64,000 nucleotides of DNA from Acidobacteriota bacterium (GTDB taxonomy: Bacteria; Acidobacteriota; Vicinamibacteria; Vicinamibacterales; UBA2999), in the NCBI GenBank assembly GCA_963169195.1, contig CAUJDN010000093.1, positions 1 to 64,000 on the forward strand, read 5' to 3'. Below are positions 36,655-44,820 of this stretch, piece by piece (within the stretch, counting starts at the first letter, position 1; each line of letters opens with the position of its first letter). The translations under genes were made by a program, and so were the position numbers. The notes below the pieces were generated by a model. The model made no database searches. It saw only the letters and a program-made list of their open reading frames with translations, and had not been told where the DNA came from.

Positions 36655-38211
36655 GTGTCAAACCGCGAGTTGCGCTACATTGATGACGCAGTGGCGGACG
36701 CCGCGTCCTTCGCGCGCTTCTTCGACGGGGCCCACGCGGGCTTCTACATCGGCACGCTGGACGAGGCGGCGTCCGCGACGCTTTCCGCCAACGCACACCT
36801 GAAACTCATACTGGGCTACCCGCCCGAGCTTCCCGACACGCAGGTCCGCCCCTTCGATCCCCCCCGATTCGTCGACCCCGAGGCGCGCGCCTCTCTGCTC
36901 GAGCGCCTCCGCAAGGCCGGGTCGGTCTCCAACCACCTGCTTCGCCTGCGTCGGCTCGACAACTCCATCGCGTGGGTCGAGGTGACGGCCAGCGCCGAGC
37001 CCGCCCCGGGCGAGGGCCTCCGCGTCGAGGCCATTCTCAGCGACGTCGGCGAGCGCCGAAAACTCGATAACCAGTCCCGCGACATCCAGGCGCAGCTCCT
37101 GCAGGCCGAGAAGATGGCGGCCCTCGGCCACACCATTTCCGGCGTCGCCCACGAGCTCAACAATCCACTCGCCACCATTCTGTCGTGGGCCGAGCGGCTG
37201 AGCGACCATCCGCCCGACGAGAAGACACGGCGCGGCCTGGCCGTCATCCTCGGCGAGGCGGAGCGCGCCGCGCGCATTGTCCGCAACCTGCTCACCTTCG
37301 CCCGCAAGCGCCAGAGCACGCGGGCGATGGTGGATGTGAACCAGGTGGTGAAGGAGACGCTGGCCCTGCGCACGTACGAACAGCGGGTTTCGAACCTCAC
37401 CCTCATCGAGGCGCTCGCCTCGGGCCTCCCGCAGGTGTTCGCCGACGCCCACCAGATCAAGCAGGTGCTGCTCAATCTCGTCATCAACGCCGAGCAGGCC
37501 ATGCTGACCGCGCACGGCCGCGGGACGCTCGTCGTCCGCACGTGGCACGACCCCGACAAGGGCAACGTGCTGCTCGAGATCAACGACGATGGGCCGGGCG
37601 TGACGCCCGAGGTCGAGTCCCGGATCTTCGATCCGTTCTTCACGACCAAGGAGGTGGGGAAGGGGACCGGCCTCGGGCTGAGCGTGGCCTACGCCCTCGT
37701 CCAGGAGCACGGGGGCCGCATCTGGGTCAGGTCGGAAGGCCATGCGGGCGCCTCGTTCTTCGTGGAACTGCCGGTCGCCATGCGGCCGGCACCCACGCCC
37801 GGCGCAAGCCCGGCACCGCCGGCATCGATCTCGCTGGACCGGTTCAAGGGCGCCCGCGTGCTCGTGGTGGAGGACGAACCGGCGCTGGCGGTGGCGGTCT
37901 CCGAGGCGCTTGGGGACGCCGGCTTCGTGGTGGATCGGGCGGGCGACGGCGAGGAGGGCCTCACCCGCCTCGCCGAACAGTCCTACGAGCTCATCGTCTG
38001 CGACCTGAAGATGCCGCGGATCGACGGGATGCAGTTCTACCGCGCCATGGCAGCGGCCACGCCGGCCCTGGCCCGGCGCGTCATCTTCGTCACCGGCGAC
38101 GTGGCGGGCACCGACGCCGAGCGGTTCCTCGAGGAGACGGGGTGCCGCTGGCTCTCGAAGCCGTTCAGGCTGGGCGACTTGCTCCGGGCCGCCCGCGACA
38201 CTCTCTCGTAG
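36655..38211 (+). CDS. Hybrid sensor histidine kinase: PAS-like, HisKA, HATPase, receiver
   Basis: 518 residues, no membrane helix. A PAS-like region is at about 15-130, then HisKA with the phosphoacceptor in G-V-A-H-E-L-N-N-P-L (His166). The catalytic domain has N-L-V-I-N-A-E-Q-A-M (N box), D-D-G-P-G-V (G1), and G-K-G-T-G-L-G-L-S (G2). The C-terminal receiver has E-D-E-P and the acceptor Asp450 in V-C-D-L-K-M-P. It is a cytosolic phosphorelay kinase; the stimulus is unknown. It starts at GTG. Its last 175 bases overlap, on the other strand, the 3' extension of the FliA-type sigma gene. Confidence 0.9.
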   Translation: MSNRELRYIDDAVADAASFARFFDGAHAGFYIGTLDEAASATLSANAHLKLILGYPPELPDTQVRPFDPPRFVDPEARASLLERLRKAGSVSNHLLRLRRLDNSIAWVEVTASAEPAPGEGLRVEAILSDVGERRKLDNQSRDIQAQLLQAEKMAALGHTISGVAHELNNPLATILSWAERLSDHPPDEKTRRGLAVILGEAERAARIVRNLLTFARKRQSTRAMVDVNQVVKETLALRTYEQRVSNLTLIEALASGLPQVFADAHQIKQVLLNLVINAEQAMLTAHGRGTLVVRTWHDPDKGNVLLEINDDGPGVTPEVESRIFDPFFTTKEVGKGTGLGLSVAYALVQEHGGRIWVRSEGHAGASFFVELPVAMRPAPTPGASPAPPASISLDRFKGARVLVVEDEPALAVAVSEALGDAGFVVDRAGDGEEGLTRLAEQSYELIVCDLKMPRIDGMQFYRAMAAATPALARRVIFVTGDVAGTDAERFLEETGCRWLSKPFRLGDLLRAARDTLS

Positions 38212-39071
38212 GGCACCACGACGGCGGAGGTGGCGCGCCGCTCCGCGTCCGGAGCCACCCGCGTGTCGGACATGGGCAGCGACGCCTTCGCCATGACCGG
38301 CTTCACCTGGAAGGCCAGGATGGCCGAACGGATGGCCCTGGCCGCGACTGCGGGGGCCGTGTCGGCGCCCAGGGCCTCGCGCAGGCGGCGCAGCGCCCGG
38401 GCGTGCAGCTGCGAGACGCGCGACTCGTTCACGCCCAGCTCGGTGCCGATCTCCTTCATCGTCACCTCGCCGTAGTAGTAGAGCGAGATCACGCGCTGCT
38501 CCCGGGCCGGGAGCGTGGCCACGGCGCGCTGCACCCGCTCCTTCACCTCGCTCTGCTCGTAGACCGCATCGGGCCGCTCCGGTTCGGCTGGCATCAGCAC
38601 GGCGGGCAGCTGCTGGTCGTCCACCTGCTCGGCCGTCGAGTAGGGCGACGTGGATTCAATCGTGTTGATGCGGACGATGGTCCGGCCAAGCCGCTTCTCG
38701 TCGGAGCCGACGGCGGCGGCGAGGTCCGCCAGCGACGGCTCGTGCCCGAGCTCGGCCCGGAGCTTCTCCCGTGCGGCCTCCAGCTCGCGACGCACACGCC
38801 GGACGCCGCGAGGCCAGGCGTCCTTTCGCAGGGCGTCGATCATGGCACCGCGAATGCGACGCTCGGCAAAGGTCTCGAACTTGATCCCGCGGCTGCCGTC
38901 GAACCGTTGGGCGGCGTCGATGAGCCCGATCACGCCGTCCTGGACGAGGTCTCCCAGGTCAATCGAATGCGGCATCGTCGCCGCCATTCTCCGGGCAAGG
39001 GCTTCGACGAAAGGCAATCCGGCTTCCACGCGGTTGGTTGCGGCGGCATCGACACTCATTCGTTCGCTCAT
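38037..39071 (-). CDS. FliA/WhiG-type (sigma-28 family) RNA polymerase sigma factor with C-terminal extension
   Basis: 344 residues from ATG 39071 (an ATG four codons later is equally plausible; GGAGG lies directly before the first). Region 2 has L-G-D-L-V-Q-D-G-V-I-G-L-I-D-A-A-Q-R-F-D and F-E-T-F-A-E-R-R-I-R-G-A-M-I-D, region 3 Y-S-T-A-E-Q, and region 4 E-Q-R-V-I-S-L-Y-Y-Y-G-E-V-T-M-K-E-I-G followed by the recognition helix N-E-S-R-V-S-Q-L-H-A-R-A. This is the FliA class. The sigma fold ends near residue 235. The remaining 110 residues are Arg/Ser/Ala-rich and partly antisense to the kinase gene, so they are likely unconserved. No flagellar genes are in view. Confidence 0.85.
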   Translation of the reverse strand: MSERMSVDAAATNRVEAGLPFVEALARRMAATMPHSIDLGDLVQDGVIGLIDAAQRFDGSRGIKFETFAERRIRGAMIDALRKDAWPRGVRRVRRELEAAREKLRAELGHEPSLADLAAAVGSDEKRLGRTIVRINTIESTSPYSTAEQVDDQQLPAVLMPAEPERPDAVYEQSEVKERVQRAVATLPAREQRVISLYYYGEVTMKEIGTELGVNESRVSQLHARALRRLREALGADTAPAVAARAIRSAILAFQVKPVMAKASLPMSDTRVAPDAERRATSAVVVPYERVSRAARSKSPSLNGFESQRHPVSSRNRSASVPATSPVTKMTRRARAGVAAAMAR

Positions 39072-39252
39072 CCTCCGGACCCAGGGTCAGGTCCCGCCGC
39101 CCTATAAGGCAACCTCGATGCCAAGGTTGTGCAGCGGCGTGGAGCGACGGGCATCGACGTCGATCTGAACTGTAAAGCCTTGAAAAGGCAGCCCTTGTAC
39201 GATGCTGGCGTGAAAAGCGCGATCTGTCGGCGACCAGCCCGTCCGTCAGGCT

Positions 39253-39291
39253 CTTGACGATTCTTGTGCTGAAATCGTCAAGCCGTTGACG
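39253..39291. promoter_or_regulatory. Operator-like half-sites CTTGACGATT / AATCGTCAAG / TTGACG
   Basis: A perfect 10-base inverted repeat (39253-39262 and 39273-39282, 10-base centre) immediately followed by a third TTGACG half-site (39286-39291). The forward-reverse-forward order is the same as at 40016-40044. Confidence 0.5.
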
Positions 39292-39338
39292 TGTTTCAGC
39301 GAGCCCTTCCGTGCATCGACGCGCAAAAACAGGCCCGG

Positions 39339-39362
39339 ATCGGACCACGAACGGGGTCCGAT
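39339..39362 (-). terminator. Inverted repeat ATCGGACC-N8-GGTCCGAT
   Basis: A perfect eight-pair stem. On the minus strand it follows the DHp microprotein gene and is followed, 9-10 bases later, by TGTTTTTG, so it may terminate that small operon. Confidence 0.5.
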
Positions 39363-39438
39363 GACTATTCCGTAATCAATCAACGAAATTGTGGGTCGAT
39401 CGCGAGGGCAGCGACCAGGGAGACGAACGAAAATGTCT

Positions 39439-39657
39439 CTATTCGGACTGGGCCATCGTCGCGCGGATCTCGCGCGCCAGACTCATGGCCTGCAGGGCGG
39501 CGGAGACCACCTGGGTGGCGCGTGCGCGCTGGCCCTCGTCTGGCGCCTTGGCTTCGAGCAGCTCCGCGTGCGCGAGGATGACGCCGAGCTGATTGTTCAG
39601 GCGGTGGAGAAGCGACCGCAGGTTGTCGGCATCGATACCCGACAAGGAGCCGTCCAT
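39439..39657 (-). CDS. Stand-alone histidine-kinase dimerisation/phosphoacceptor (DHp) microprotein
   Basis: 72 residues from ATG 39657. Nearly the whole protein is one helical hairpin with L-L-H-R-L-N-N-Q-L-G-V-I-L-A-H-A-E-L-L at about 16-34, matching the H-x-L-N-N phosphoacceptor helix of HisKA domains. The second helix is at about 45-70. No ATPase, PAS or receiver part is present. It could be a phosphotransfer or dimerisation partner for another kinase or for the NtrC-type regulator encoded divergently. It lies 41 bases after the HTH gene, same strand. Confidence 0.6.
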   Translation of the reverse strand: MDGSLSGIDADNLRSLLHRLNNQLGVILAHAELLEAKAPDEGQRARATQVVSAALQAMSLAREIRATMAQSE

Positions 39658-39698
39658 GGTTGTCCCGATTGGCACCTGCGGTCCGGTCAACACGGTCG

Positions 39699-39893
39699 TC
39701 ACACCGCCACGTTCGAAGCCGTGGGCGCCGAGCCGTCGGGCTGGCGCCACAGCGTGTCCACGAAGATCCGGATGCTGCCGCCGGCGGTCCGCACGTACTC
39801 GACCTTGCCCGCCGCAATCCAGTTGTAGATCGTGCGCCGACTCACGCCCACGAGCTCGCACGCCTTCATGATGCTCACAGTTTGACGTTCCAC
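39699..39893 (-). CDS. Small excisionase-like helix-turn-helix DNA-binding protein
   Basis: 64 residues from a GTG at 39893, chosen because AGGAGG lies eight bases upstream; the ATG at 39977 adds a Gly-rich tail and lacks such a site. Residues 6-50 are a MerR/excisionase-type winged HTH: I-M-K-A-C-E-L-V-G-V-S-R-R-T-I-Y-N-W-I-A-A-G-K-V, split as helix, turn and helix, then a wing with Y-V-R-T-A-G-G-S-I-R-I. No integrase or phage genes are nearby, so it is probably a local regulator. TTGACRAT half-sites on both sides of its operon are candidate targets. Confidence 0.78.
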   Translation of the reverse strand: MERQTVSIMKACELVGVSRRTIYNWIAAGKVEYVRTAGGSIRIFVDTLWRQPDGSAPTASNVAV

Positions 39894-40015
39894 GGGTCCT
39901 GCCTCCTGGCCGCAGCGGCCGGCACTGAAGTCTCCGTGTGCCCCTGCCCATCCGGCCGGGTGCCCACTCAAGTTCAACTATCGGTTCCTGCCACTATGAG
40001 ATTAGGCGTGCAGCC

Positions 40016-40044
40016 TTGACAATGATTGTCAAATATTTGACAAT
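40016..40044 (+). promoter_or_regulatory. Promoter and overlapping operator of the NtrC-type regulator gene
   Basis: TTGACA (40016-40021), 17-base spacer, GACAAT (40039-40044), placing the start of transcription at or near the ATG at 40053. The same bases form a palindrome TTGACAATGATTGTCAA (40016-40032) plus a third half-site TTGACAAT (40037-40044), so a bound dimer would block the promoter. Confidence 0.65.
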
Positions 40045-40052
40045 CGCTCGAA

Positions 40053-41426
<1,374 letters not shown>

Positions 41427-44728: not shown

Positions 44729-44820
44729 TGATGATTGGTGATTGACGATTGACGATTCATTGACGATTGATGATTGCGCGATTGGTCAATGGATTGGGGG
44801 ATTGGGGGATTGGGGGATTC
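44727..44820. repeat. ATTGACG-type heptamers and ATTGGGGG octamers
   Basis: About six imperfect 7-mers (ATTGATG, ATTGGTG, ATTGACG) and then three perfect ATTGGGGG units fill the gap between the dus start and the stop of the nusG-like gene. It is strikingly AT-richer than its surroundings. Confidence 0.88.

Follow-up and report, generated by a model that had tools for sequence, protein, structure and literature searches.

Among the systems most similar to the locus described here, FleQ of Pseudomonas carries a divergent receiver-like domain, and NtrC at glnALG controls its own promoter, with a palindrome that differs from the box found here. Spo0B is a dimeric histidine phosphotransferase that resembles a histidine kinase, and a hybrid kinase acts upstream of ChpT. 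The published FleQ box consists of the inverted repeats GTCAAT and ATTGAC, 2 nt apart (PMC10723142), a 14-bp palindrome whose proposed reader is a Fis-type HTH dimer (PMC10723142, PMC6424431), and FleQ ChIP-seq in two pseudomonads was reported to define no robust consensus (PMC6120874). Boxes have been described in tandem at biofilm genes and over a putative sigma70 promoter, the latter linked to repression, and the operon that contains fliA in P. putida is transcribed from sigma54 promoters under FleQ control (PMC10723142, PMC6424431). The fliA gene of P. aeruginosa was reported to be sigma54 independent (PMC7064773).

At glnALG, the phosphorylated bEBP binds tandem upstream sites and acts on sigma54 by looping (PMC7408454). 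FlrC, FleR, and FlgR are two-component bEBPs that act on sigma54 promoters within hierarchies that include sigma28 (PMC7064773). In Rubrobacter and Streptomyces, the WhiG/RsiG systems comprise a nonflagellar FliA/WhiG sigma factor that reads the flagellar promoter consensus and is under c-di-GMP anti-sigma control (PMC8325347). ChpT has been described as a histidine phosphotransferase that forms a dimer and looks like a histidine kinase (PMC3433190).

The DNA that we analyzed is a 64,000-nt stretch (the window) of contig CAUJDN010000093.1 in assembly GCA_963169195.1, from an Acidobacteriota bacterium (Vicinamibacterales; UBA2999). Among the open-licence PMC papers listed by our literature searches, none describes its locus in the title or the opening lines of the abstract. 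The NtrC-type regulator encoded there has a recognition helix nearly identical to that of FleQ but, unlike FleQ, has a canonical receiver and a hybrid kinase encoded nearby; moreover, the exact boxes in this genome occur at the locus itself only, and the locus is also present in genomes without detected flagellin. Its target appears to be a sigma factor gene rather than nitrogen metabolism, which sets it apart from NtrC at glnALG, and unlike FlrC, FleR, and FlgR it does not appear to be tied to flagella, the flagellar FliA likely being a separate paralogue. Where WhiG is subject to anti-sigma control, a predicted sigma54 enhancer is found here, and in place of ChpT or Spo0B the locus encodes a 72-aa predicted helical hairpin that lacks an ATPase-like domain. 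Based on the comparative evidence below, we think it likely that the NtrC-type regulator binds two sets of boxes, activates the sigma factor gene via sigma54, and represses its own promoter, while the sigma factor drives a small operon between the two sets.

Three copies of a palindrome at one locus

A sequence-only reading of this region had described two matching sets of TTGACRAT half-sites, each running forward, reverse, and forward, the first from position 39253. Full matches are located at 39254-39261 (+), 39274-39281 (-), 40016-40023 (+), 40025-40032 (-), and 40037-40044 (+). The described half-sites are real; the left set begins one base later than proposed, and its third half-site (39286-39291, TTGACG) matches TTGACRAT at only 6 of 8 bases. 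TTGACRAT occurs 11 times in the window against 1.34 expected, a number reached in none of 100 shuffles. Part of this excess comes from a short tandem simple repeat at 44742-44767, which has three direct TTGACGAT copies and lies between dihydrouridine-synthase-like and NusG-like genes (named by eye); the TTGACRAT matches at 44742, 44749, and 44760 sit in this repeat and look unrelated to the locus.

The half-site is better parsed as part of a larger unit. The repeated half-sites are the arms of a 14-base palindrome, GTCAA-N4-TTGAC, that is present in three copies at the locus, with no strand assigned to any of them: left box 1 (39245-39258, GTCAGGCTCTTGAC, one mismatch), left box 2 (39277-39290, GTCAAGCCGTTGAC, exact), and the right box (40028-40041, GTCAAATATTTGAC, exact). 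Left box 1, which starts 32 bp from box 2, had been overlooked because its left arm is GTCAG. Nor do the two sets match each other in architecture as had been supposed: the left one consists of two boxes in tandem at a position typical of a sigma54 enhancer, and the right one of a lone box that overlies a promoter.

Only two exact palindromes occur in the 5,012,259-bp genome, both at this locus, and the reversed control pattern has none. Since about 1.0 to 1.35 exact copies per genome are expected from the composition of the window, the count itself is unremarkable; the placement is what stands out, the probability that a given exact palindrome has a second one no more than 1 kb away being about 0.0004. 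Relatives have 0 to 8 exact copies per genome, compared with 0 to 5 for the control, so the signal lies in conserved position rather than abundance. Lack of conservation or a random genome-wide frequency had been named as grounds for discarding the sites; the position is conserved in relatives, while the count per genome is near chance. The relaxed box GYCAA-N4-TTGRC was set aside as a genome-wide signal, given that its 8 places compare with 10 for the control and are background. Flagellar regulation via the boxes seems unlikely and was likewise set aside: no box at up to one mismatch occurs in 19.5 kb of this genome's own flagellin contig.

Gene order is conserved across Vicinamibacterales

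To the left of the boxes, a gene for a FliA/WhiG-family sigma factor (38037-39071, minus strand) converges with one for a hybrid histidine kinase with a C-terminal receiver (36655-38211, plus strand). The boxes flank an operon for an HTH protein and a DHp-like protein, and the NtrC-type regulator gene (40053-41426, plus strand) lies to the right. Matches to the HTH protein at an E value of 1.5e-23 or better defined 62 genomes. Loci were fetched from the window and 60 relatives (G078 was left out) and oriented on the HTH gene; L041, L085, and L088 could not be oriented, which left 58 loci, i.e., 57 relatives and the window. They provided 57 left and 55 right intervals, for which the expected numbers of intervals with a box were taken from first-order Markov shuffles. 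The loci are related by descent, and their counts are therefore not independent.

Of the 58 loci, 57 have the sigma factor gene, 55 have an adjacent regulator, 55 have the DHp gene, and 51 have the kinase gene, which holds the same relative place in these and encodes the proposed partner. These figures leave out kinase matches at L035, L037, L074, and L090, which are the regulator's own receiver, and a regulator match at L065, which is a different gene. In all three loci that lack a DHp match (L036, L042, and L053), the sigma factor gene still has a left box beside it.

A sample of the phylum that comprised 297 genomes gave 27 HTH matches at an E value of 1e-15 or better, of which 26 fell within the order; motif patterns identified no other parts of the locus on the 8.6-kb contig of the lone match outside it (G167). 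Flagellin was undetected in 41 of the 62 genomes with a strong HTH match, as judged by hand comparison in a set that includes some incomplete genomes. A second set was drawn from named metagenome-assembled genomes, mostly labeled Acidobacteria, by taking the best 80 of 128 relatives. The sigma pattern did not recognize 18 of these, and another 30 were already in the first set; of the 32 new loci, 3 had less than 450 nt upstream, leaving 29 further loci.

Most tandem boxes lie at a near-fixed distance from a sigma54-type element

A sigma54-type -24/-12 element (TGGCATCGAGGTTGCC, 39108-39123, minus strand) lies in front of the sigma factor gene. Elements of the form TGGYAY-N6-TGC were found in 53 of 57 left intervals, compared with 0.38 expected in shuffles and none on the opposite strand. 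Boxes with up to one mismatch were found in 50 of the 57 (0.67 expected) and were missing from the other seven. Their density was 3.75 per kb in left intervals and 4.72 per kb in right intervals. The rest of these loci, 413 kb in all, had 0.0145 per kb, which makes boxes at up to one mismatch about 260 to 325 times denser in the two intervals than elsewhere. Where two boxes were present within a left interval, their starts were 30 to 33 bp apart in 28 of 30 pairs.

The distance between box and sigma54 element is near-fixed in most loci even though the gap between the element and the sigma factor gene varies. In 40 of the 48 loci that have both a box and an element, a box lies 130 to 137 or 162 to 169 bp upstream of the element. 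The other eight fall outside these main classes, and four of them belong to the genus of the window: the boxes of the window and a close relative lie about 121 and 153 (to 122 and 154) bp upstream, and those of another locus of the genus lie 109 and 141 bp upstream. The genus distances of 109 to 121 bp, compared with the usual 133, are shorter by about one and two helical turns, and the overall helical-phase concentration of the box-element distances is moderate (0.54 to 0.60). In the second set of 29 loci, 27 have a box (exact in 18) and 28 have a sigma54 element; 31 of 40 boxes start 146 to 149 or 179 to 181 bp upstream of the element, figures that are counted from the other end of the box and so exceed those of the first set by about a box length. 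Tandem sites upstream of a -24/-12 element are the arrangement expected of an NtrC-class activator.

The right box overlaps the putative promoter of the regulator gene

The near-consensus promoter that had been pointed out in front of the regulator gene, overlapped by the right set, is indeed present: the sigma70-type TTGACA-17-GACAAT (40016-40044, plus strand) matches the consensus at 10 of 12 bases and is one of two promoter-like matches, against 0.2 expected in shuffles. The first right half-site, at 40016, is its -35 element, and the -10 element lies within the right arm of the box.

A box at up to one mismatch was found in 44 of 55 right intervals (0.20 expected). The other 11 have either no box or one with at least two mismatches, mostly with only a -10-like GTCAAAAT half left, which suggests that autoregulation may not be universal or that the signal is partly that of the promoter. 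TTGAC or TTGAT occurs 20 to 22 bases ahead of GTCAA in 29 of the 55 right intervals. In the genus of the window, TTGAC lies 12 bases ahead of GTCAA in 5 of 5 loci, bringing the total with either arrangement to 34 of 55; here the -35 element is closer to the box by 9 bp when compared with the other 29 intervals in which one is recognizable, and the -10 element has moved into the box arm. Judging from these spacings, the box usually appears to cover the -10 region wherever a -35 element is recognizable. In either arrangement, the promoter would be expected to be blocked by a bound dimer. For P. putida, repression has been linked to a putative FleQ site lying across a promoter of the sigma70 type (PMC6424431). 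With a tandem pair on the left and a single box on the right, the two sets probably act in opposite ways.

The NtrC-type regulator is the probable reader of the boxes

The product of the regulator gene has the NtrC-class domains: a receiver, an AAA+ domain with GAFTGA, and a Fis-type HTH with the helix KRTTLVEKLKR. The receiver is canonical (Response_reg, 85.4 bits against a cutoff of 30.2). The recognition helix KRTTL[VIL][EQ][KR]xx is found in 51 of 52 complete regulators, the exception perhaps being a frameshift; three further regulators that are cut by contig ends were left out of this count. The helix aligns with RRTTLVEKMRK of FleQ, with K instead of R as the first residue, and is thus of the RRTTLVEK type, although ZraR equals FleQ in score when the full HTH is aligned. 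Helices of the KRTTLVEK type may also occur in other NtrC relatives.

Natural rearrangements helped to separate the candidate binders. Whole-genome searches found no match to the HTH protein in G044, G056, or G052 (G044 and G056 are single contigs; G052 comprises 490 contigs and has a completeness of about 91%). All three nonetheless retain the FliA-type promoter element, the DHp gene, the regulator, and box sites: G052 has a left pair and a right box, G056 has one left and one right box, and G044 has a right box together with a left site that carries two mismatches and lies 153 bp away from the sigma54 element. At L065, L082, and L084, conversely, the regulator is not adjacent to the HTH gene; left boxes remain, and no right box was seen at these three loci. 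In G057, one of the genomes that carry these three loci, the regulator (orthology judged by eye) lies 60 kb away, has the same helix, and is preceded by an exact box, GTCAACATCTTGAC, just before its start codon. In G067 and G076, the other two genomes whose regulator is not at the HTH gene, none of the exact boxes that were fetched (one place in G067, four in G076) had a regulator at its side. These findings support the NtrC-type regulator as the predicted binder of the boxes and argue against the HTH protein. The original suggestions that one dimeric protein serves both sets and controls the locus along with the neighboring FliA-type sigma gene, and that this protein is the NtrC regulator, thus gain support from the comparative evidence.

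The explanation that survives best beside the NtrC-type regulator is that the boxes are bound by a different FleQ-like or NtrC-like protein whose gene lies elsewhere, or by several such regulators. The box matches the reported FleQ consensus from another phylum (PMC10723142). However, boxes occur together with an adjacent regulator, the two have moved jointly in one genome, and the exact boxes of this genome are confined to this locus, so we regard a regulator encoded elsewhere as rather improbable.

The half-sites could also be merely -35 hexamers that belong to sigma70 promoters on the two strands. The -35 consensus is indeed TTGACA, and the 34 right intervals with TTGAC or TTGAT at one of the two spacings from GTCAA fit this idea. 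Hexamers account for 40016-40021, but not for inverted arms with a fixed N4 or for a tandem pair 32 bp apart, and they leave a left set upstream of a sigma54-type element unexplained; this makes the explanation very unlikely. Least probable of all, and rejected here on the natural deletions in G044, G056, and G052, is the earlier alternative that the small HTH protein, which is highly conserved and encoded between the two sets, binds both and autoregulates its operon and neighbors, since box sites persist where no match to it was found and the right box of G057 has moved with the NtrC-type gene and not with the HTH gene; excisionase- and BldC-type HTH proteins are not known to read a GTCAA-N4-TTGAC palindrome.

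A small operon behind a FliA-type promoter

The HTH protein (39699-39893, minus strand) is 64 aa long, with a GTG start that is supported by conservation. It has an excisionase-type HTH domain by TIGR01764 (38.3 bits against 28.8) and falls well short of the BldC model NF033787 (24.3 bits against 77). The DHp-like protein (39439-39657, minus strand), at 72 aa, has no ATPase domain, and all 33 of the 33 sequences aligned share its H-box histidine. It scored 17.5 bits against PF00512, below the gathering score of 26.9, and so is not assigned to the HisKA/DHp family by this profile. Its predicted structure is a two-helix hairpin (pLDDT 88.6). RetS and GacS kinase regions and DHp domains topped the fold matches, at weak E values of 0.4 to 0.6 with none below 0.001, and unrelated helical hairpins followed close behind. 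We infer that the protein is a candidate phosphotransfer protein, possibly a minimal one. A terminator-like hairpin with a T-run follows the DHp gene (39332-39346, minus strand); the region has two such hairpins, against 0.9 expected in shuffles.

In front of the operon lies a FliA-type promoter, CTAAT-N16-CCGATA (39979-40005, minus strand), the only match to this pattern in the genome. CCGATA lies no more than 330 nt ahead of the HTH start at 55 of 58 loci (3.0 expected, none on the opposite strand), and it is preceded by CTA at a spacing of 18 to 19 nt in 52 of 58 (0.06 expected). The sigma28 consensus has been given as TAAA/GCCGATAA (PMC2859248, PMC8325347), which the putative CTA/CCGATA element fits. 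In the genomes without the HTH gene (L108 in G044, L109 in G056, and L111 in G052), the element stands directly before the DHp gene, which suggests that the DHp gene is the core target.

The sigma factor itself scored 207.1 bits against TIGR02479 (cutoff, 189.6), which places it in the FliA/WhiG family, and 189.5 bits against NF005413 (cutoff, 201), which falls short of flagellar FliA. A 40% paralogue is encoded on another contig together with flagellin and is likely the flagellar FliA. The 344-aa open frame extends past the conserved part of the sigma factor, which ends near 38350, and overlaps the convergent kinase gene at 38037-38211.

A proposed circuit

In the circuit that we propose, a signal would reach the hybrid kinase and pass, perhaps through the DHp protein, to the NtrC-type regulator, whose Fis-type HTH dimer would read the FleQ-box palindrome. 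On the left, two dimers could sit on the tandem pair about three helical turns apart, upstream of the element at 39108-39123, and activate sigma54 RNA polymerase so that the FliA/WhiG-type sigma factor is made. On the right, one dimer would lie over the -10 and start region of the regulator's own sigma70-type promoter, with repression as the most likely outcome. The sigma factor would then read the promoter at 39979-40005, giving the HTH and DHp proteins.

A wider reading, which we offer tentatively and consider possible but doubtful, is that this is a self-contained, flagellum-independent circuit typical of one order. Kinase, DHp protein, and regulator would form a phosphorelay; the regulator would control the sigma factor via sigma54 and FleQ-type boxes; the sigma factor would drive the DHp protein, which would pass phosphate back to the regulator and so close a loop; and the HTH protein would be a dispensable output regulator. 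The locus is of interest as an apparent sigma54-to-FliA-family cascade that persists as a separate locus in genomes with undetected flagellin, and for its FleQ-type boxes in another phylum. With only two exact sites in the genome, recognition of the boxes should be easy to test.

The strict pattern CTAAW-N16-CCGATA, with which we looked for further targets of the sigma factor, has one match in the genome of the window; of 40 genomes scanned with it, 22 have a match, and the number per genome ranges from 0 to 3. We do not claim a sigma regulon from this pattern, and extra matches, such as those before pilO-like and pseudopilin genes, are candidates only. One of them, at L120 (G057:C28:180463-180489), lies just before a pseudopilin-like gene that may be a further target of the sigma factor.
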